This document shows, one piece after another, positions 22,536-33,603 of a stretch of 64,000 bases of DNA. A program made the position numbers and the translations under genes. How positions within the stretch are numbered: the stretch's first letter is position 1; each line of letters begins with the position of its first letter. The notes below the pieces were generated by a model that saw nothing but the letters and a program-made list of their open reading frames with translations, was not told where the DNA came from and searched no databases. Origin of the DNA: Rhodopirellula halodulae (GTDB lineage: Bacteria > Planctomycetota > Planctomycetia > Pirellulales > Pirellulaceae); NCBI RefSeq assembly GCF_020966775.1, contig NZ_JAJKFV010000029.1, forward strand, positions 1,357,001 through 1,421,000. Direction: 5' to 3'.

Positions 22536-23855
22536 TTAGAGTGACTTAAGAACCTTCTCCGCAGCGGCGATCGTTTCGTCGATCATGGCTTCGGTGTGTT
22601 GTTGGCTGAAGAACAACGCTTCGAATTGGCTGCAGGGCATGTAGATGCCTTCACCGATCAGTCCCCAGAAATAGCGGCCAAATGCCTCGCGGTCGCAGCG
22701 GTCGGCTTCGTTCCAACTGGTGACCGGATCGCCGTTGAAGAAGAGCGTCAACATCGCGCCGGCTTTGGCAACGGTGTGAGGGATGCCCGCCGATGTGGCC
22801 GCTTGGTCGAGGCCCTTTGCCAGACGATCCGCCAATTGTTCGAGTCGTTCGTAAGGTGGTTGCTCTTTCAACAAACGCAGCGTTGCCGAACCAGCAGCAA
22901 CCGCGACCGGATTGCCGCTCAACGTTCCAGCTTGGAACACTTTCCCGGCGGGAAGCACTTGATTCATGATCTCCGCTTTGCCGCCGTAGGCACCCAAAGG
23001 CATTCCGCCGCCGACAATTTTGCCGAGCGTCGTCATGTCCGGCGTGATTCCAAATCGTTCCTGAGCCCCACCAAAGGCGACTCGGAAACCAGTCATGACT
23101 TCATCGAAGATCAGAATCGAACCGTGCTGCGTGGTCAGGTCGCGAGCCGCTTGCAAGAACGCCATGGTCGGAACCACGCACCCCATGTTGCCAACGACGG
23201 GCTCCAAGATCACCGCGGCGATATCGGGACCATGTTCGGCGAAAGCGTTTTGCAATCCAGCGACATCGTTGTAGGAAAGCACCAACGTGTCCTCAGCCGC
23301 ACCCGGGGTAACACCGGGGGAATCCGGGGCACCGAGCGTCGCCGCCGCGCTGCCCGCTGCGACCAACAGCGAATCGACGTGGCCGTGATAGTTGCCCGCG
23401 AACTTGATGACTTTCTTTCGGCCGGTTGCACCGCGAGCCACTCGCAGTGCGCTCATGGTGGCTTCTGTGCCGCTGTTGACGAGCCGTACTTTTTCAATGC
23501 TAGGGACGGCGTCGATAATTTGTTCCGCCAAACGTGATTCCGCTTCGGTCGGGGCACCGTAACTGGTCCCCTTTGCAGCGGCTTCGGTGATGGCGGCGAT
23601 GACTTCGGGGTGAGCGTGACCCAGGATCATCGGTCCCCACGATCCGATGTAGTCGATGTAACGATTGCCATCGATGTCAAACAGATAGGGGCCATCGGCT
23701 CGTTCGATGAACAGAGGTGTGCCGCCAACCGCACCGAAAGCTCGGGCGGGCGAGTTCACGCCGCCGGGCATCAATTGCGTGGCTCGTTCAAAAGCTGCGA
23801 CACTCTTGGGACCAGCGGAGGAAGACTGCGAGTTGGCTTGGTTGGCAGATGTCAT
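22536..23855 (-). CDS. hemL: Glutamate-1-semialdehyde 2,1-aminomutase
   Basis: This 439-residue PLP enzyme converts glutamate 1-semialdehyde to 5-aminolevulinate, the C5 route to tetrapyrroles. It shows GGVNSPARAF at the N terminus, NSGTEATMSALRVARG, GNYHGHVDSLL, IFDEVMTGFRV (PLP aspartate) and TTLGKIVGGGMPLGAYGG, in which Lys279 is the expected Schiff-base lysine. Length and order are normal. It lies 116 bases downstream of hemC on the same strand, so a small heme operon is likely. Confidence 0.96.
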   Translation of the reverse strand: MTSANQANSQSSSAGPKSVAAFERATQLMPGGVNSPARAFGAVGGTPLFIERADGPYLFDIDGNRYIDYIGSWGPMILGHAHPEVIAAITEAAAKGTSYGAPTEAESRLAEQIIDAVPSIEKVRLVNSGTEATMSALRVARGATGRKKVIKFAGNYHGHVDSLLVAAGSAAATLGAPDSPGVTPGAAEDTLVLSYNDVAGLQNAFAEHGPDIAAVILEPVVGNMGCVVPTMAFLQAARDLTTQHGSILIFDEVMTGFRVAFGGAQERFGITPDMTTLGKIVGGGMPLGAYGGKAEIMNQVLPAGKVFQAGTLSGNPVAVAAGSATLRLLKEQPPYERLEQLADRLAKGLDQAATSAGIPHTVAKAGAMLTLFFNGDPVTSWNEADRCDREAFGRYFWGLIGEGIYMPCSQFEALFFSQQHTEAMIDETIAAAEKVLKSL

Positions 23856-23971: not shown

Positions 23972-25006
23972 CTAATTCGAATGATTGTCGCGAACAGTTC
24001 GGATCAGTTCATCGGCTCCTTGCTGTCGCATGCTTCGAGCCACATCCACGCCCAGTTGTCTTGCCGCCGCCGTTTCTAGATCGGAATCGATCAGTTCGAT
24101 GTCCGAAGTGGCGACTTCGTGGATGCGCCGCGAACCGTCGGCCGACATGACCACCGCTTCCAATCGCAGAGATGCGGTGCGTTCAGCAGTGCCAGTCGAC
24201 TGCACTGTGGCATGACACGCGATGGGGGCCAAGCAACCTCCGTGCAGTTCTGACAACACAGTTCGCTCGGCGGTGGTGGCGGCTCGAGCGGGAGCATGGT
24301 TGAGCCGCGAAATTGCATCGCGAGCCACCGCGTCCTCGCTGCGGACCTCAATTCCAAGGGCTCCCTGTCCGGGAGCGGGTAGCATCTCAGTGAGCGGGAA
24401 CAATCGGAACGGTAATTTGGTCATCTCCAAACGGAGGATTCCTGCGTGGGCGAGAACAATCGCGTCAAACTCACCGGCGTTCAGCTTTGCCAATCGTGTT
24501 TGGACGTTGCCGCGGATCGGAGAAATTTGCAGGTCAGGACGAAGATACATCAGTTGTGCGAGCCGTCGCGTGCTGCCGGTCCCGATGCGAGCTCCTTGCG
24601 GGAGCAGCGGCAGCGGCGATTCAATGATTTCGGAATCTGTGTTTTCGGGCAGCGAACGATCGTCTGGAAAAACCAGCCCATCCAAGACGGATTCGCGAGG
24701 TGGAACCGCGGCCAACAAGAAACGATCGTCCGGTTCTGTTGGCAGGTCTTTTAGCGAGTGCACCGCAACGTCCGCCTCACCGTCGACGAGGGCCTGCTGA
24801 ATTCTTTTGGTGAATAATCCCACCTGACGGGTGGCGTCGATCGGACGCATGTCCGTGTCGCCTTTGCTGACCAGCGGCACAATATCGGTTGAAATCCCGA
24901 GCTTTTTCAGGCTTTCGGCGACATGCTCTGCTTGCCACATGGCCAGCGGACTCTCCCGCGTCGCGATTCGCAGGCGGGGTGATTCGTGTGATGAGGAGGA
25001 TGCCAC
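23972..25006 (-). CDS. hemC: Hydroxymethylbilane synthase (porphobilinogen deaminase)
   Basis: The 344-residue enzyme polymerises four porphobilinogens into hydroxymethylbilane. Visible family blocks are [64 protein letters not shown] and HGGCLAPI, where Cys258 should carry the dipyrromethane cofactor. Translation appears to start at a GTG (25006); no strong ribosome site is seen there, so the exact start is uncertain by a few residues. It is probably the first gene of a hemC-hemL transcript. Confidence 0.95.
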
Positions 25007-25228
25007 GGGTGCGGATGATTCAGAGGAAGGGTGGACGGACCGGCCGAAAATGCGAAAATCTTGGCGGAAATTCTCCCGCTGTCTCGTTACGCTAGGGTTG
25101 TCGATTTTAGGCGGGAAATGGCGATTCCGGAACCAAGTGGGGCGGGGCTTGGGAGCGGTCTCGGCTAGAAATCACGGTGTCGATGTGTCCGATCGGCGGC
25201 TTGGGCCGTTGTTCTCTTGTCCCCATCG

Positions 25229-28120
25229 ATGCATCCGACCCTGGCTCGTCTTGCGAGGGGCGGATGGATCGCATTCCTTTTCCTTCGTCCGCTCTTGTCC
25301 AATTCTTCTGACGAATCGAAAGCGATTGGCCAACCCGCCAATCCACCACGAGGTCTCTCCGACGGGTCTTTGGACCGGAGCGGGGATGGCGATAGTTCGT
25401 GGGCAGAAGTGTTGGATCCTTCGCTGTCGGAAGTTCGTGGCGATCTGACCCGCGACCATTCTCATGCTGAGGTCGAGTTTGATTTTGACGGCGAGCAACC
25501 GTCCATCCCCGAGATTGTCGGCGGTTACAAAGTCGGACGACCCATCGGCCGCGGAGGAATGGGCGAGGTCTTTTTGGCCGAGCACCGATCGATGGGACGC
25601 GTGGTGGCACTCAAAATCCTGCCCACACGATGGTTGGACCGCGCGGAATCCGTGAATCGGTTTTACGAGGAAGTCCGTGCGGCGTCGCGATTGATGCATC
25701 CCAACATCGTGACCGCATTTGACGCTGGTGAAGCGGACGGGATTCACTTCTTGGCGATGGAATACGTCGAGGGCCGAACGCTTTCACAGTGGGTCAATGA
25801 ACAAGGCCCCATGTCCATTGGTGACGCCGCGTCGGCGATTCGTCAGGCAGCCTTTGCGTTGCACCATGCTCACGCGGCGGGCATCGTTCACCGGGACGTG
25901 AAGCCGGGGAATTTGATGCGAGCCAACGATGGGACGATCAAACTGTTGGATCTGGGGTTGGCCCGTTTCTCGGCGGATTGGTACCCGTCCCCGAAAGAGA
26001 TCGCACCTCGAGAAGTCGAACTGCGTGACGGACAAGGCTCGCACAGCAATTCCCACTCGACCGAAGCCAAGAACCGACCGCTCCTGGGGACACTGTCGTT
26101 CATTTCACCCGAGCAATTGGAGGACGCGAATTCCGCAGATTCGCGAAGTGATCAATACTCGTTGGGAGCGACTTTGTTCTACCTGTTGCTGGGGCATCCG
26201 CCGTTCACGGGGGATTTGGTGGAACAGGTTTACGGGCACCGTCATGGTGAAGTACCCGATTTGATGACGCTTCGAAACGACGTCGATTTGAAATTGGCCG
26301 ACATCGTTCGTCGAATGCTCGCCAAAGATCCGGCCGAACGATACGGGTCGATGGACGAAGTCGCTCGGGCGATGGCACCCTACGACAACGATCGTTCCAC
26401 GCCCGCTTGGGTGCTGGACTTCGCGCGTCGAGAAACGGGTGAGGACCACACGACGGTCGGCGGCGAAAGCACGCGTCGCGGTCTTCTCAGCGTTGTGGGG
26501 ATCGAGCTGGGGATGACTCACGCCGCGACCGCCATCACCCAGTCCGACGGAACCATGGTGTCGGGGTGGCCTGGCATCTCTGAGTCTGGACCACGGGCGT
26601 TGTGTCGGATCGCCGCTGCCGAAAAGACGGATCGAGAAACAGGTCAATCGGTCGTGTTGTTTGGCGATGCCGCCTATGAACGGCGAGAGCGACATCCGCA
26701 GCGGGTCGCACACTGTCAAATGATGTACTTCGGTCGCGAAGACATGATGCGACGGATTGGTGGACGGTTGTGTCCACCTGAGGTGACCATGGGTTTGTGC
26801 ATGCGTCGATTGCTCGGCAACACGCTGACTCAAATGGACACACCCGATTCCGCGGACGGCGATTCGTCTGCTGCAATGCAGCTGGGGACCAGTTGGCGGC
26901 GTCACGAACGTTGGCCTGATGCCGTCGCGATCACGGTGCCGTCCAGCTACGACCAATTGCACCGCCGAGCGATCTATCAATCGGCTCAATTGGCCGGCTT
27001 GCCCGCGGTTCGCTTGATTGAACGCAGCATTGCCGTGACACGTTTCGCCATGACCGAGCCACCGCGTACCAGCCACGCGGAGGTGCCGTTGTCGCCGATC
27101 GACCCTCAGTCCTCGGCACCAATTTTGTACGTGGGTTTGACAGGGCAGTCGTTGGATGTTTCGATCCTGCAAGTGTACGGGGGCCAGATCCGTCAAATTT
27201 CCACGGCCGGGCATTGGTGTCACAGCACGATGGCGTGGGCTCGTCGATTGGTGGAGATGATTTCTAATCGGTTGCCGACGACTCCGCCGCGAATTCAGGG
27301 GGTGCCGGCCAATCGAAAGGAACTGATTCATCTGACGCGAATTCAGATGGCCGGTGAGCGAGCGATGAATCAGTTGCTGCTGATGCCCGAGACGAAGGTC
27401 GATATTGCACACGAAAACCATGTTGATTCCGTGACGATCAGTCGCGACGAATGGTTAGGCAACTGTGAGGACTTGATCGAGTCCATCGAAGAAAACATTC
27501 GATTGGCATGTCAACGAGCCGGCATCCTGCCAACCGATCTGCGTCATTGTTTGGCCATGGGGCCGTTGTTGCGTTTGCCCGTCATTCGTGATCGCGTTCT
27601 GATCGGTACCGCTCCCAATGCGGGCGTGGCGTTTTTCGATCAAGTCGACGCGGCTCATGGCGCCGCCGCATGCGTCGCATCGGAATTGCCCGGGCAACTG
27701 TGCAGCGAGCCGCCCGCGAAAAGTGTGGCGGGGCACTCAATCGGATTTGTGGTCGCCGACCGAGATGGCAAACGGCGAATTCTTCCTATCATTCCGCGAG
27801 GAACTCCAACGCCAGCCCGAACCAACCGTCAACTCAACGGAACCGCGCGCGACAATCGGATGACGTTGTCGTTGGTTGAATCGTCCGGCAAGAACGGTGA
27901 GAACTGGCAAACGCTGGGCCGGCACATCATTGAGGTCTCGCCGGATGAAGTGAATCCAATGCGACGCCTGGGTTTCGAATTGGATATCAACGGATTGCTA
28001 TCCGTTCACCTGGAACGCCCGGATTTGGGACGCACCGTGATGCTGCCGCCGCTGCCGGTGAACGCGATGGAGGAAGCGCAGTGGCAGGATTGGCGAGAAT
28101 GGATCGAGGCGACCTTGTAG
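25229..28120 (+). CDS. Ser/Thr protein kinase fused to a degenerate Hsp70-like domain
   Basis: The 963-residue protein begins at ATG 25229; a TTG at 25217 would add four residues. Residues about 100-370 form a complete Hanks-type kinase: glycine loop IGRGGMGEV, Lys129 in VALKIL, HRDVKPGN with Asp223, DLG in place of DFG, and SPEQ. From about 420 to the end the order of Hsp70 is followed. GIELGMTH (424-431) stands for the phosphate-1 loop DLGTTN. AITVPSSYDQLHRRA resembles the lobe I TVP block. VGLTGQS (635-641) replaces DLGGGT. Near 914, GFELDINGLLSV matches the Hsp70 substrate domain. Loss of the acidic and glycine residues in both phosphate loops suggests the ATPase is inactive. It is probably a cytoplasmic signalling protein; its targets are unknown. 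Confidence 0.88.
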   Translation: MHPTLARLARGGWIAFLFLRPLLSNSSDESKAIGQPANPPRGLSDGSLDRSGDGDSSWAEVLDPSLSEVRGDLTRDHSHAEVEFDFDGEQPSIPEIVGGYKVGRPIGRGGMGEVFLAEHRSMGRVVALKILPTRWLDRAESVNRFYEEVRAASRLMHPNIVTAFDAGEADGIHFLAMEYVEGRTLSQWVNEQGPMSIGDAASAIRQAAFALHHAHAAGIVHRDVKPGNLMRANDGTIKLLDLGLARFSADWYPSPKEIAPREVELRDGQGSHSNSHSTEAKNRPLLGTLSFISPEQLEDANSADSRSDQYSLGATLFYLLLGHPPFTGDLVEQVYGHRHGEVPDLMTLRNDVDLKLADIVRRMLAKDPAERYGSMDEVARAMAPYDNDRSTPAWVLDFARRETGEDHTTVGGESTRRGLLSVVGIELGMTHAATAITQSDGTMVSGWPGISESGPRALCRIAAAEKTDRETGQSVVLFGDAAYERRERHPQRVAHCQMMYFGREDMMRRIGGRLCPPEVTMGLCMRRLLGNTLTQMDTPDSADGDSSAAMQLGTSWRRHERWPDAVAITVPSSYDQLHRRAIYQSAQLAGLPAVRLIERSIAVTRFAMTEPPRTSHAEVPLSPIDPQSSAPILYVGLTGQSLDVSILQVYGGQIRQISTAGHWCHSTMAWARRLVEMISNRLPTTPPRIQGVPANRKELIHLTRIQMAGERAMNQLLLMPETKVDIAHENHVDSVTISRDEWLGNCEDLIESIEENIRLACQRAGILPTDLRHCLAMGPLLRLPVIRDRVLIGTAPNAGVAFFDQVDAAHGAAACVASELPGQLCSEPPAKSVAGHSIGFVVADRDGKRRILPIIPRGTPTPARTNRQLNGTARDNRMTLSLVESSGKNGENWQTLGRHIIEVSPDEVNPMRRLGFELDINGLLSVHLERPDLGRTVMLPPLPVNAMEEAQWQDWREWIEATL

Positions 28121-28171: not shown

Positions 28172-31100
28172 TCATGAACCAATTGGAACCAGCCGATTTA
28201 GCAATTCGCGGTTCTGTTTGCGAACCTTGTCACAATGATCGATCAAAGCCGCGGGCGATTCGTGCTGAGTCAACCGAGCGAGTTGTTCCAATTCCAGCGT
28301 CGCATCGGCATCGTCCAGTTCGTGCGGAAGTTCGTGGCGAGCAACCGTGTTGAGCAACCGCAGTTTGTCTTCGATGACGCGAAGAAAACGATAGTTGTCG
28401 ATCAACGTTTGGATTGTCTCGGATGGGGATTCCTCGAATTTGCGAAGCTCCTCCAAACACTGAATCGTGTTGGAGTGCGGCTGGAACTCTGCGTCTTTGG
28501 CATGTTGCATGATTCCGGATGCGGCCACTAATTCCACATCCAACAAACCACCCGCTCCTCGTTTCAGGTTGCTGGGGCCCGCCGTGGATTCGTTGTTGTC
28601 ACGCCAGTCTCGGAGGGACGCGAACATGCTCTCACGCCAACTGACACTTTGGATTGCCCGCTGCAACGCCTTGCCAACCATTTCGCGGGCTTCACGCGAA
28701 CCGGAAATCGGACGTGATTTGCAGAGCGTGACCAATTGCCAAAGAGGAGCCGTGCGTTGGCGGAACGGTTTTAGGAATTGATCGCACGACATGGCGAGGA
28801 CCGATTCATCCGCACCGCCCGCGAACGGCAGGTCCATTTCGTACAGCCGTCCTTCTGGCGTTTGGTCCATCCGGCGAAGGATGTTTTGTGCAAGTTGGTT
28901 GAAGAATTGTCGGTTCGACAACGTTGACCGTGGCCCACCAACACGTCGCTTTGTATCGCCCTCAGAGGTGTAGACAAACGTCAGGTCCAAGTCGCTGTGA
29001 TAATTCAATTCACCGCCAGCGAATCGTCCCAGCGCCACCGCAACCAATTCGGCCGGGTTTCCTTCGGCATCCATCGGATCGCCATAACGCTGAGCGAGCA
29101 ACTCTTGTTCACGTTCCATGACCCGCCTCAAGGAGGCTTCCGCCGTGTCGGTCAATGAAAGACTGATGGAGTCGATCGATTCCTTGCCAAGCAAATCGCG
29201 AACGCCGATCATGAGATGAGCGCTGGCCTTCACGTGACGCAGGACCTCCACAATCTCTTCGACGCCGTCGCAAAGATGCAACGTCTGCGCGTCCAGACGT
29301 TCTTTGGTTGGCAATCGGTCCATGACCAACGAATCAATCAGCTCATCAATCATGCCTGGGTGATCGATCAGGATGTTGGTCAGGTAGGGTGCCAGTGAGC
29401 ACATTGAAATCGTCAGGCTCAACGTGGCGTCGTTGGTGCGCAAAAGTTCCCACAGCGTTGCTTTGGCACCAATGGAATCCGTGACCGCCACCAATCTGGC
29501 CAAAGTGGAATCAGGGTCGGGCGATGCCGAGATTTCTTGCAGAACGCGTGGAGCTACCGCGGCAAAGAAATGCCGACAGCGGCGTGGCGACAAAAACGAA
29601 ACCGTTTCTTGACTGAGCGCGATCACGTTGGAGATCGCTTGAGGCACATTCGTGAACTGGTAGCGCGCGATCGTTTCTTGGAACACATCCATGTCGGGAT
29701 CTGGATCCAAGATCAGCTCGGTGATCAGGGCGAAATCTTGCTGTAGTTCGTCTGGTGATTCGCTCGCCTCTTCGCCATCGCTGTCCGACGCTGGGAATTC
29801 GCTGGGCGGTTCTTCATCGACCATCAAGTGATTGATGATCTTGCGGTTCACGTCGAAGGTTTCTTGCAGCATCTTTTCGAATTTGGCTGCATCGCCCGTC
29901 GATTGGTTGCCCACGGCGTCTTGGTTTTCGGTTCGGACGCCCAATCGCCATGCCAAGCGAGCGCGAACGTCTGGATCGTCAGGCAAGTGCGAGATGCGAT
30001 GGTCAAAGAGAACCGCCAACAGGTGCTCGAGTCGACAAAGTTTCGCGTGGTTGTTCGACAGAATCGACGCTTCTTGGGAGGTCAAACAACCATGTCGTGA
30101 AAGTTCGTTGATGGCGGGCAGCGTGCCAGTCACGCGGACGTCGGGCAGATCGCTGCCGTGTAGCAGTTGCAAGAACTGAATGGTGAATTCAATGTCCCGT
30201 CGTCCACCGGGGACATCCGCGATGGGCGTGCTGTCGGAGGCAGCGGTGGCATGAGCACGCTTTTCGAGTTTGCGACGCAGCACTCGGATGTCGGCGATTT
30301 CGCTGCGAGTCAGCAAATGATGATAGACCCAAGGTTCAATTCGTTGCAGAAACGTCTTGGAGAGAGACTCGTCGCCGGCGGCATGACGAGCTTTGACAAA
30401 CGCCAAACGCTGCCAAGTTCGACCGTTTCGTTCGTAGTGGGTGGCCGCTTCGCTGATGCCAAAGAAATCGAGATCTCGCGAAGGTTCGATGGCGGTCCGA
30501 CGACCCAGTGCTGATTGCTTGCGAGTCGATTGAACGCCCAGTCGTTGGGTGTCAGAAAACGACACTTCGTGACGGGTGGGTTGATGATCGAAACGCAGCG
30601 TGAATGGGATGACTTGGCTGCCGTGAGATTGCAGGATCTCGACCAAGTTCACCGCGACTTGGCGATGAAACTCAACGTGGCTGGCGTTCTTGCGATCGAT
30701 TTGGTCGCAAAGAAGTAGCAAGTCCAGTTGCGATTCGTATCCAATTTCTTGGCCGCCGTAGTTGCCCAGAGCGATGATCGAAAAGGTGGGCTGGCTACCA
30801 TCGATTCGCTGGGGGATCGGTCGCTTACCGCTGACATGCCCGATCGCGAATCCAAGGGCGGCTTCCAGGATCGCATCGGTGACAAAACTGATCTGCGATT
30901 GGACTTTGTCAGGACTGAGTCCTCGGACAAATTCGCCGTAGGCAATTCGCAAAATTTCGCGACTGGCAAATCGGCGGATCGCAAAGGACGCCCGGCGTGG
31001 CGATTGGATGGAGGCCATTTCGCCGGTCAATTCATCGACTAAAACGGATCGCTGAGCGGGAGAACCGTCGCTGGCCCGGATGAGGTCGAAGCTTTCCGGA

Positions 31101-31426
31101 TCGTTGATCAACAACTTGGCGATGGCGGGACTGGTGCTCAGAACCTGCAGCAACGCGGGCAACATCATCGGATCTCGCTCGAACAGGGCGAGCAACGCCA
31201 TCGGGCTCCGCGAAACGCGAATGAATTGGCTCAGCCGATCGATGGATTCGTCGGGCGTGTCCGTCAGATGCAAGTGTTCCGCCAGGGTGGACCAGAGCGT
31301 TTGCAGCAGGTCGTCCGAAATGCCGCATTCCACAATCGCGGCCAGCGATCGAGCGACGCGTTCCGGATCGGTGACATGTTCCGGGCTCAGCGGCGCGTAG
31401 TCAGCCCAATCACTCATCCAATCCAT
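28172..31426 (-). CDS. glnE: Bifunctional glutamine synthetase adenylyltransferase/deadenylylase
   Basis: This 1084-residue protein shows the tandem nucleotidyltransferase layout of GlnE, which adenylylates and deadenylylates glutamine synthetase in response to PII and glutamine. The C-terminal domain has a complete GGELNYHSDLD motif (about residues 806-816) and a later GGLLDVE. The N-terminal domain has GGQEIGYESQLD (224-235), in which the first acidic residue of the S-D-x-D pair is Gln, together with PGGRRDIEF further on. The length is above the usual 930-950 residues. Its gene stands alone, convergent with the kinase-Hsp70 gene. Confidence 0.93.
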   Translation of the reverse strand: MDWMSDWADYAPLSPEHVTDPERVARSLAAIVECGISDDLLQTLWSTLAEHLHLTDTPDESIDRLSQFIRVSRSPMALLALFERDPMMLPALLQVLSTSPAIAKLLINDPESFDLIRASDGSPAQRSVLVDELTGEMASIQSPRRASFAIRRFASREILRIAYGEFVRGLSPDKVQSQISFVTDAILEAALGFAIGHVSGKRPIPQRIDGSQPTFSIIALGNYGGQEIGYESQLDLLLLCDQIDRKNASHVEFHRQVAVNLVEILQSHGSQVIPFTLRFDHQPTRHEVSFSDTQRLGVQSTRKQSALGRRTAIEPSRDLDFFGISEAATHYERNGRTWQRLAFVKARHAAGDESLSKTFLQRIEPWVYHHLLTRSEIADIRVLRRKLEKRAHATAASDSTPIADVPGGRRDIEFTIQFLQLLHGSDLPDVRVTGTLPAINELSRHGCLTSQEASILSNNHAKLCRLEHLLAVLFDHRISHLPDDPDVRARLAWRLGVRTENQDAVGNQSTGDAAKFEKMLQETFDVNRKIINHLMVDEEPPSEFPASDSDGEEASESPDELQQDFALITELILDPDPDMDVFQETIARYQFTNVPQAISNVIALSQETVSFLSPRRCRHFFAAVAPRVLQEISASPDPDSTLARLVAVTDSIGAKATLWELLRTNDATLSLTISMCSLAPYLTNILIDHPGMIDELIDSLVMDRLPTKERLDAQTLHLCDGVEEIVEVLRHVKASAHLMIGVRDLLGKESIDSISLSLTDTAEASLRRVMEREQELLAQRYGDPMDAEGNPAELVAVALGRFAGGELNYHSDLDLTFVYTSEGDTKRRVGGPRSTLSNRQFFNQLAQNILRRMDQTPEGRLYEMDLPFAGGADESVLAMSCDQFLKPFRQRTAPLWQLVTLCKSRPISGSREAREMVGKALQRAIQSVSWRESMFASLRDWRDNNESTAGPSNLKRGAGGLLDVELVAASGIMQHAKDAEFQPHSNTIQCLEELRKFEESPSETIQTLIDNYRFLRVIEDKLRLLNTVARHELPHELDDADATLELEQLARLTQHESPAALIDHCDKVRKQNRELLNRLVPIGS

Positions 31427-32013
31427 CCATTCGCATTCGAGATACCTCCACGGAACTTCGCGGCAACGAGTTGCGTCTCAATCAATGGACCGCCTGCGCG
31501 ATTGAACGCTTCGTTTTGACGCGATTGGCGAGTTTAAACGGTGGGTGGGGATCGTTGTAGCGGACGGTGGGGCACTCCGAGTCACCGAGACAAAGTGGCG
31601 TTTGCAAGGTTGGACAGGGCGGGTGGATTGAGTTCCCCGCGAATGTCCGTTTGTGGACCGAATCTCGGAGCAAAATGATGACATGGATTTCTGAATCTTC
31701 AGTGCCCACGCTCAGATGTAACCTAGGTTTGGATATGCGAGGCGGGGGAACGTCGTGCATCCAATGACCACGGTGTTGAGGCATGTGGCGGTTTTTCATC
31801 GAGTGTTGCGCAAACGCAACATCGGTGTTGTCTGCAACCCACATGTCACGTCGCAAGCTCATCCTCCCCGCGGGCGGTCTGTCCGCCTAAACTCTTCTGC
31901 GACAACGGTTTGCTATGATTTATGCGTTGCCTCAACAGGCGACTGGCACCGACGGTGCTTGGTCTCTTTCACCCAATCGTGTTGATGTTGTTTCGGGTGT
32001 CGAGGAGACCTTG
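31427..32013. other. Divergent intergenic region glnE/sigA
   Basis: There are 587 bases without a convincing gene. It should contain the promoters of both flanking genes. The hairpin at 31804-31821 is listed separately; a weaker one (GGCGG/CCGCC) lies near 31877. Confidence 0.45.
31804..31821. repeat. Short inverted repeat upstream of the sigma factor gene
   Basis: TGTTGCG-CAAA-CGCAACA is a perfect seven-pair hairpin about 193 bases before the sigma factor start. It has no T run; a regulatory role is only a guess. Confidence 0.25.
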
Positions 32014-33603
32014 ATGGGAAAGAAGCTCAGCCGCCGTAGCTTGCAGGACGACGCCTTTGATGCGGAAGATTCGGTCAGTCGCCGATCACGCACCATGGGA
32101 CAAGAATTCTCGGATTCTATCTCCGAGGAGATCGAGGTCGGTGCGACGGGGGATGACGACGCGATTGCACGCCGAGACGAATTCCCCACCGATCCGACCG
32201 AAGATCCGGTGCGGATGTATCTGATGCAGATGGGGCAAATCCCACTGCTCTCGCGAGACCAAGAAGTCGCAGCGGCGAAGCAGATCGAAGCGACACGCGA
32301 TCGATACCGGCACTGCATGATGGCCACCGACTTCATGCTGCAGTCCGCGTTGAAATTGCTGCAACAAGTCCGCGACAAGCAATTGCGTTTGGACCGCACG
32401 ATCGAAGTCAGCGTGACCAATGCGGCTGAGAAAAAGGCGATCATGAAACGGATCGTTCCAAACACACGCACACTGGATTATCTGCTGCGTCAAAACCGTA
32501 GCGATTACATGGTCGCCATCAATTCGTCGATGCCGATGCGTCGTCGTCGTGCGGCGTGGCGAAATCTGGTCATCCGTCGCAACAAAGCGGTTCGTTTGGT
32601 CGAGGAGATGAACCTCCGCACCAACAAGCTGCAACCAATTTTCGAAAAGCTGCGTCGCAGTTGCGAACGCATGCAGGAGATCAAAGCGATCTTGGCCGAC
32701 GAACAACGCGTGACCATGCCAGGCATGCCAACGGTCGACGAGCTGCGATCAGAACTCCGCAGCTTGATGCGTCTGACCTACGAAACACCTCGCACGCTGG
32801 CTCGGCGAGTGGAACGTTGCGATACGTTCCGCGATGACTACGACGCGGCGAAACGTGTTCTGTCCGCTGGTAACTTGCGTTTGGTTGTTTCGATTGCCAA
32901 AAAGTACCGCAATCGTGGTTTGTCATTCTTGGATTTGATCCAAGAAGGCAATACCGGTTTGATGCGTGCTGTCGACAAATTCGAGCATGCTCGAGGTTAC
33001 AAGTTCAGCACCTACGCAACATGGTGGATTCGTCAAGCGATCACCCGAGCGATCGCGGATCAAAGCCGAACGATTCGCGTGCCGGTTCACATGATCGACA
33101 CGATGAACAAGATTCGTCAGATCACTCGCGATTTGGTGCAAGAACACGGACGCGAACCCACCGCAGAAGAAGTTTCCAAACGCAGCGGGTTGTCGCTGGA
33201 CGACACGCGAGTGATCCTGAAGATGAGCCGTCAGCCGTTGTCGTTGGATCAGCCGGTGGGCGATCACGACGACAGTGCGTTTGGCGAGTTCCTGCAAGAT
33301 CACCGCGACGATGATCCATTGGTGGAAACCAACCGCGAAGCTCTCAAGCATCAAATCGATTTGGCGATGGAAACGCTGAACTATCGTGAACGAGAGATTT
33401 TGCGTCTGCGATACGGTCTGGCCGATGGCTACACCTACACGTTGGAAGAAGTCGGTCGCATCTTCCAGGTGACTCGCGAACGTGTTCGTCAGATCGAAAG
33501 CAAAGCCGTTCGAAAGCTTCAGCAACCTTACCGAGCGAAGTCGCTGGTGAGCTTTCTGGACGGTGCCGAAGTTTCGCTGTTTGAAGGCAGCGAAGCGATC
33601 TGA
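32014..33603 (+). CDS. rpoD: Primary RNA polymerase sigma factor (RpoD/SigA)
   Basis: The 529-residue sigma-70 factor starts at ATG 32014, with GAGGAG eight bases upstream. Region 1.2 ([18 protein letters not shown], 64-81) is followed by a long non-conserved block. Region 2 ([19 protein letters not shown] to TWWIRQAI, 287-343) contains the -10 recognition helix. Region 3 spans about 360-415. Region 4 is about 455-505, with the -35 helix [10 protein letters not shown]. The typical housekeeping FLED-type element between regions 3 and 4 is modified (FGEFLQDH), which is normal in this phylum. It should direct most transcription. It ends six bases before the convergent aroC stop. Confidence 0.93.

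Follow-up and report, generated by a model that had tools for sequence, protein, structure and literature searches.

Hsp70 is usually regarded as tied to its ATP cycle. The locus described here, in a stretch of 64,000 nucleotides of Rhodopirellula halodulae DNA (the window), raises the question of what an Hsp70-like protein part does when it is joined to a protein kinase and its ATPase site is degraded. The fusion gene and its kinase domain lie at:

25217..28120, + strand: kinase-pseudo-Hsp70 fusion frame, up to 967 aa from a TTG codon, true start uncertain
25526..26353, + strand: Ser/Thr kinase domain, aa 104-379 (Pfam Pkinase PF00069, E 8e-44)

Candidate starts are the TTG at 25217, the ATG at 25229, which was the start taken in an earlier sequence-only reading and is codon 5 of the TTG-started frame, or a TTG further on, close to a conserved LSNS. 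That reading had described a complete Ser/Thr kinase followed by an Hsp70-like half in a single frame, and profile searches recovered both halves (Pkinase 8e-44, HSP70 1e-15). Fusion orthologs without inner stops were present in all 12 other genomes of the genus, which together with the E-values rules out a chance or wrong-frame match. The kinase residues K133, E152, H225-R226-D227, N232, D245 and E299 are all retained, as had been claimed, although the DFG motif reads DLG (D245). The fold match together with the catalytic Lys, Glu, HRD, Asn and DFG Asp identifies a Hanks-type Ser/Thr kinase. The top NCBIfam kinase model was NF033483 (PknB/Stk1 PASTA kinases, E 3.1e-74), but the score of 251 bits against a cut-off of 450 places the protein outside that family.

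The C-terminal half was compared with Pfam families and with solved structures, a profile search having been proposed as a check on its Hsp70 character, and the match was significant. Pfam HSP70 (PF00012) was matched at aa 570-932 with an E-value of 1e-15 and 57.5 bits against a cut-off of 20.6, indicating membership of the family. Among solved structures the tail as a single sequence matched DnaK 2v7y (3.8e-12), and a 14-sequence tail profile matched BiP (1.4e-31) and, over profile positions 8-538, E. coli DnaK (about 1e-27). Another actin-fold family was considered and rejected, MreB being matched only at 0.056. Two parts of the tail could be placed:

26930..26968, + strand: ITVPSSYDQLHRR block (DnaK ITVPAYFNDAQRQ)
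27722..28087, + strand: SBD-beta-like part, homology by profile, limits approximate, with no alpha lid after it

A profile of the last 152 residues matched solved Hsp70 substrate-binding domains (best E 4e-7), indicating SBD-beta homology, and homology only; as a single sequence the SBD-like part of the window gave no Pfam match. The SBD-like profile also weakly matched three chains titled 'Putative heat shock protein' (best 0.014), which we take to be Ssz1. Lid and linker were compared in L042, an ortholog of about 85% identity to the window protein. The alpha lid is missing, 41 residues following the start of the last SBD-beta strand in L042 versus 159 in DnaK, and the hydrophobic VLLLDV-type linker is absent from L042 and the other degenerate rows displayed; the window protein reads AKSVAGHS at this position.

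The state of the ATPase site was determined by comparison with the same genome's own DnaK (L002), and close orthologs were compared at the same columns. The altered sites are:

26498..26521, + strand: degraded phosphate-1 loop GIELGMTH (DnaK GIDLGTTN)
26720..26722, + strand: Met at the DnaK K70 site (AKRFMGR to QMMYFGR)
27023..27025, + strand: Arg at the DnaK E171 site (NEPT to ERSI)
27134..27151, + strand: degraded phosphate-2 loop GLTGQS (DnaK DLGGGT; D194 to G, T199 to S)
27560..27574, + strand: degraded adenosine loop GPLLR (DnaK GGSTR)

K70, E171, D194 and T199 are therefore M, R, G and S, and the window protein lacks the ATPase residues of an Hsp70. The two degraded loops pointed out beforehand, GIELGMTH and GLTGQS, were borne out by this comparison. 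Having lost the catalytic residues and the nucleotide loops as well as the canonical linker and the lid, the tail is not expected to go through the ATP cycle of an Hsp70; as judged from these residues, it would neither bind nor hydrolyze ATP.

To place this loss, 84 fusions were classified at the same four positions. The sample was chosen and is not random (genus relatives, 19 named loci and 60 stretches from the family listing); identical rows were counted once, and the set excludes the window protein (L001/L005), L004, the truncated L023 and four rows that are not fusions (L002, L003, L095, L109). Seventeen fusions are intact at K70, E171, D194 and T199, six are intermediate and 61 are degenerate, as is the window's protein. 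Five of the intermediates keep K70, E171 and D194 but carry Lys at T199; the sixth, L108, ends early and is 'intermediate' merely for want of letters. All 61 degenerate fusions have Arg or Lys in place of E171 and none keeps K70, while D194 is kept in one (L107, a doubtful row) and T199 in two (L088, L091). On the kinase side E152, D227, N232 and D245 are kept in 84/84 fusions and K133 in all 82 that cover it. As read from these positions, the loss is confined to the Hsp70 half and the kinase half is spared. The five intermediates with Lys (L102, L103, L105, L106, L119) read DLGAGK where Hsp70 has DLGGGT, which accounts for the Lys at T199; they may possibly represent a half-way state of the ATPase.

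The distribution of the fusion was determined with a 10-row alignment of whole fusions as query. Kinase plus Hsp70 matches were found in at least 143 of the 241 genomes of the window's family, Pirellulaceae, with three candidates scored per genome and some of the rows covering just part of a domain, so that the same fusion, which the sequence-only reading had suggested looking for in other planctomycetes, is indeed widespread there. Outside the family, no match spanning both domains in one open frame was present among the matches listed for the phylum (392 genomes, E 1e-140) or the class (297 genomes, E 1e-105); because scoring was limited to two candidates for each genome and the listing was thresholded, diverged fusions may be missed in these searches. 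Other families gave kinase-only or Hsp70-only matches, again among the matches listed. In one genome outside the family (G029) the model was matched from 328 to 914, but across four stop codons, and this was not counted as a fusion.

When the degenerate tail alone was used as query, 19 loci were found in a collection of named genomes, all kinase-fused (19/19), with titles naming Rhodopirellula, Aporhodopirellula, Neorhodopirellula, Rubripirellula, Roseimaritima and less precisely named planctomycetes. Among the 241 family genomes 120 matched at 1e-50 and 112 at 1e-60. Every frame at 1e-60 or better was of at least 600 aa, with two exceptions: in G196 the match is a fragment lying at the start of a contig, and in G176 a gene is broken into two frames, of which the second half is matched. 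It was at 1e-55 and weaker that stand-alone frames (520-590 aa) appeared, and the two tabulated proteins from these genomes (L095, L109) are both ATPase-intact. No stand-alone degenerate tail was seen in the 19 named loci or in the family genomes at 1e-60 or better. Three degenerate fusions, L080 (1253 aa), L085 (1160 aa) and L086 (1185 aa), carry about 350-415 extra residues of open frame before the kinase. In three genomes that belong to the same taxonomic order but not to the window's family, a short lidless Hsp70-like gene (about 515-570 aa) lies close to a different, longer one (about 680-840 aa) on the same strand (L126+L135 in G842:C40, G039:C9 and G824:C217).

The history of the tail was analyzed in two Hsp70 trees and one kinase tree. 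In the first Hsp70 tree (70 of 88 rows, near-copies and pieces being dropped) all 46 degenerate rows formed one clade (SH-aLRT 100) adjoining the intermediates (89). A second, more careful tree of 53 rows, including stand-alone Hsp70s and 10 chosen degenerate rows, again united 10/10 degenerate rows (100/100) next to the intermediates (94/96), the clade standing on a long stem for which the program warns of long branches. In the kinase tree (63 rows) 29 of 30 degenerate rows grouped together (96), and the four intermediate rows formed their sister group (86); the remaining degenerate row, L085, was badly trimmed and fell among other kinases, where its place is meaningless. The degenerate fusions are a single clade. 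The 17 intact fusions, on the other hand, were interleaved with 20 stand-alone lidless Hsp70s in the 53-row tree, suggesting that the two parts may have been joined, or separated again, on more than one occasion; a single fusion clade forced on the kinase tree cost 12 log units and was not rejected (p-AU 0.309). The stand-alone proteins, from Pirellulales and kin (L095, L109, L121-L138), are mostly of about 510-590 aa, lidless like the tail and closer to it than DnaK is in the 53-row tree, but their frames encode no kinase; L095 and L109 retain the ATPase residues that the degenerate tail has lost. Profiles, residue comparison with ATPase-intact relatives and trees all support the proposal of a kinase fused to an ATPase-degraded Hsp70.

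Selection on the parts of the protein was estimated from eight species pairs, most of them nearly saturated at silent sites. The replacement-to-silent substitution ratio was 0.021-0.069 for the kinase, 0.021-0.096 for the NBD-like part and 0.004-0.082 for the SBD-like part; for the N-terminal stretch, part of which may not be translated, it was 0.199-0.509 in the seven computable pairs. Strong purifying selection acts on the kinase and on both the NBD-like and the SBD-like part of the tail. The SBD-beta-like part was more identical than the NBD-like part in 8/8 pairs.

On balance we lean towards the explanation that the protein is a kinase carrying a once-decayed but selected pseudo-Hsp70 tail that acts as an ATP-independent binding or regulatory module. 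The tail would descend from a lidless planctomycete Hsp70, the ATPase site would have been lost once, in the ancestor of a Pirellulaceae fusion clade, and selection would then have retained the ATPase-dead tail. Its conserved SBD-beta-like part would bind a peptide or a partner, and this binding would gate the kinase or bring it a substrate. As many planctomycete relatives have the same arrangement, control or targeting of the kinase is probably the present role of the dead chaperone. The earlier idea that a pseudo-chaperone steers the kinase through peptide or client binding is plausible because conservation is higher in the SBD-beta-like part than in the NBD-like part in every pair; the SBD-like part would be expected to bind a ligand and to be coupled to the kinase.

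Alternatively, the tail could bind ATP or another nucleotide without hydrolysis and serve as a nucleotide-sensing switch on the kinase, much as Ssz1 keeps ATP that it cannot hydrolyze (PMC7083937). Purifying selection on the NBD-like part is in line with such a switch, as are new motifs, for example GLTGQ and DRS, that are conserved across the window's subclade. However, changes are found in the two phosphate loops and in the adenosine loop (GGSTR), and the charge at E171 is reversed in 61/61 degenerate fusions, and we consider a nucleotide switch rather unlikely. The tail could also be mainly a scaffold for oligomerization or localization, offering the surface of an actin-like fold, so that dimerization activates the kinase and no peptide is bound. 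Dimerization is an established trigger for many bacterial Ser/Thr kinases and most of the tail is NBD-like, but a pure NBD scaffold leaves the higher identity of the SBD-beta-like part in 8/8 pairs unexplained, and we give the scaffold a minor chance. That the tail is decaying and functionless, as its degraded ATPase site might suggest, is extremely improbable in view of the substitution ratios for both of its parts, the orthologs free of inner stops in 12/12 other genus genomes and the new conserved motifs.

The neighboring genes of the fusion are:

22536..23855, - strand: hemL, next after hemC (TIGR00713, E 2.8e-185)
23972..25006, - strand: hemC, divergent and conserved neighbor (TIGR00212, E 1.2e-84)
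28172-31426, - strand: glnE, downstream of the fusion
31915-33603, + strand: RpoD-like sigma factor gene, downstream

The divergent spacer between hemC and the fusion is window 25007-25300. In the window's subclade (31 rows of the 70-row Hsp70 tree) hemC is head-to-head with the fusion in 22 of the 27 loci having enough flank and is absent beside it in five (L053, L087, L088, L091, L093); four loci (L017, L062, L065, L073) are short of flank. Beside intact (0/16), intermediate (0/6) and other-subclade (0/14) loci hemC was not found, some of these flanks being short. At three loci (L069, L114, L115) a sigma-70 gene of the window's type is likewise found close to the fusion; given this recurrence, the hemC pairing may reflect old gene order and not function. 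At L057/L110 an other-subclade degenerate fusion without adjoining hemC has a gene similar to the window's hemL about 2.7 kb away. A neighboring chaperone partner was also sought, and no DnaJ or GrpE was present among 20 neighbor proteins of 15 loci (intact, intermediate, other-subclade and one stand-alone; Pfam at 1e-6). One neighbor (L072) has a cyclophilin domain within a large cadherin-like protein.

A bolder form of the binding-module explanation, which we put forward as speculative and very doubtful, is a kinase gated by its pseudochaperone, in which the dead Hsp70 would sense how far a client is folded or assembled and convert this into phosphorylation. Given hemC as a conserved head-to-head neighbor with hemL beside it, an early tetrapyrrole enzyme is a possible client in the window's subclade. 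If such gating were true, an abandoned chaperone cycle would have become a signaling input, and the ATPase-intact fusions of sister genera would preserve the ancestral condition in living species, with a kinase wired to a chaperone that cycles ATP. One bacterial family holds ATPase-intact, intermediate and ATPase-dead versions of one architecture, and every version that was read has retained the kinase residues. This natural series, which includes orthologs in Rhodopirellula species, bears on what Hsp70 can do without ATP and on how a chaperone becomes a kinase regulator.

The one fusion listed for G004 is the window protein's 85% ortholog, which is probably gi|32474490. Under that accession Krupa and Srinivasan (2005; PMC1262709) reported a Kinase + HSP70 protein of Pirellula sp., the C-terminal domain being termed homologous to HSP70 in their section 11, a section that mentions neither loss of the ATPase site nor intact relatives nor how widely the fusion occurs. 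The window protein has the same domain order and agrees with that architecture in its N-terminal kinase, its C-terminal HSP70 homology and its place in the Pirellula group. The sequence-only reading had known of no characterized bacterial protein with this layout: no experimental characterization was found among the papers searched, but the layout itself has been in print since 2005 (PMC1262709). The degenerate ATPase site and the family-wide spread were found described nowhere in a literature search confined to papers outside subscription. The layout is already known; its spread and ATPase decay were not found in print. The words 'Hsp70' and 'DnaK' are absent from the main text of a planctomycete kinase survey (PMC11032199), and the passages on HSP70 in conflict systems in PMC7159879 and PMC8195603 do not mention this fusion. 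In a check on expression of the R. baltica gene, kinases were found designated by RB number in PMC2754498, and none was tied to the fusion gene.

Two further known systems resemble the fusion. In the PASTA kinases (NF033483) a sensor part stands where the fusion has its Hsp70-like tail. Ssz1, of the fungal RAC, is lidless with an odd linker, binds ATP but cannot hydrolyze it, and its SBD-beta binds chains without ATP hydrolysis (PMC7083937). The fusion tail is likewise lidless, has a non-canonical linker and keeps SBD-beta. Ssz1 runs no ATP cycle (PMC7083937), and the same is expected of the tail from its residues. The partners differ, being Zuo1 and the ribosome for Ssz1 and a covalently joined kinase for the tail, and on the best reading by analogy the fusion tail would be Ssz1-like in kind and not a member of that group.
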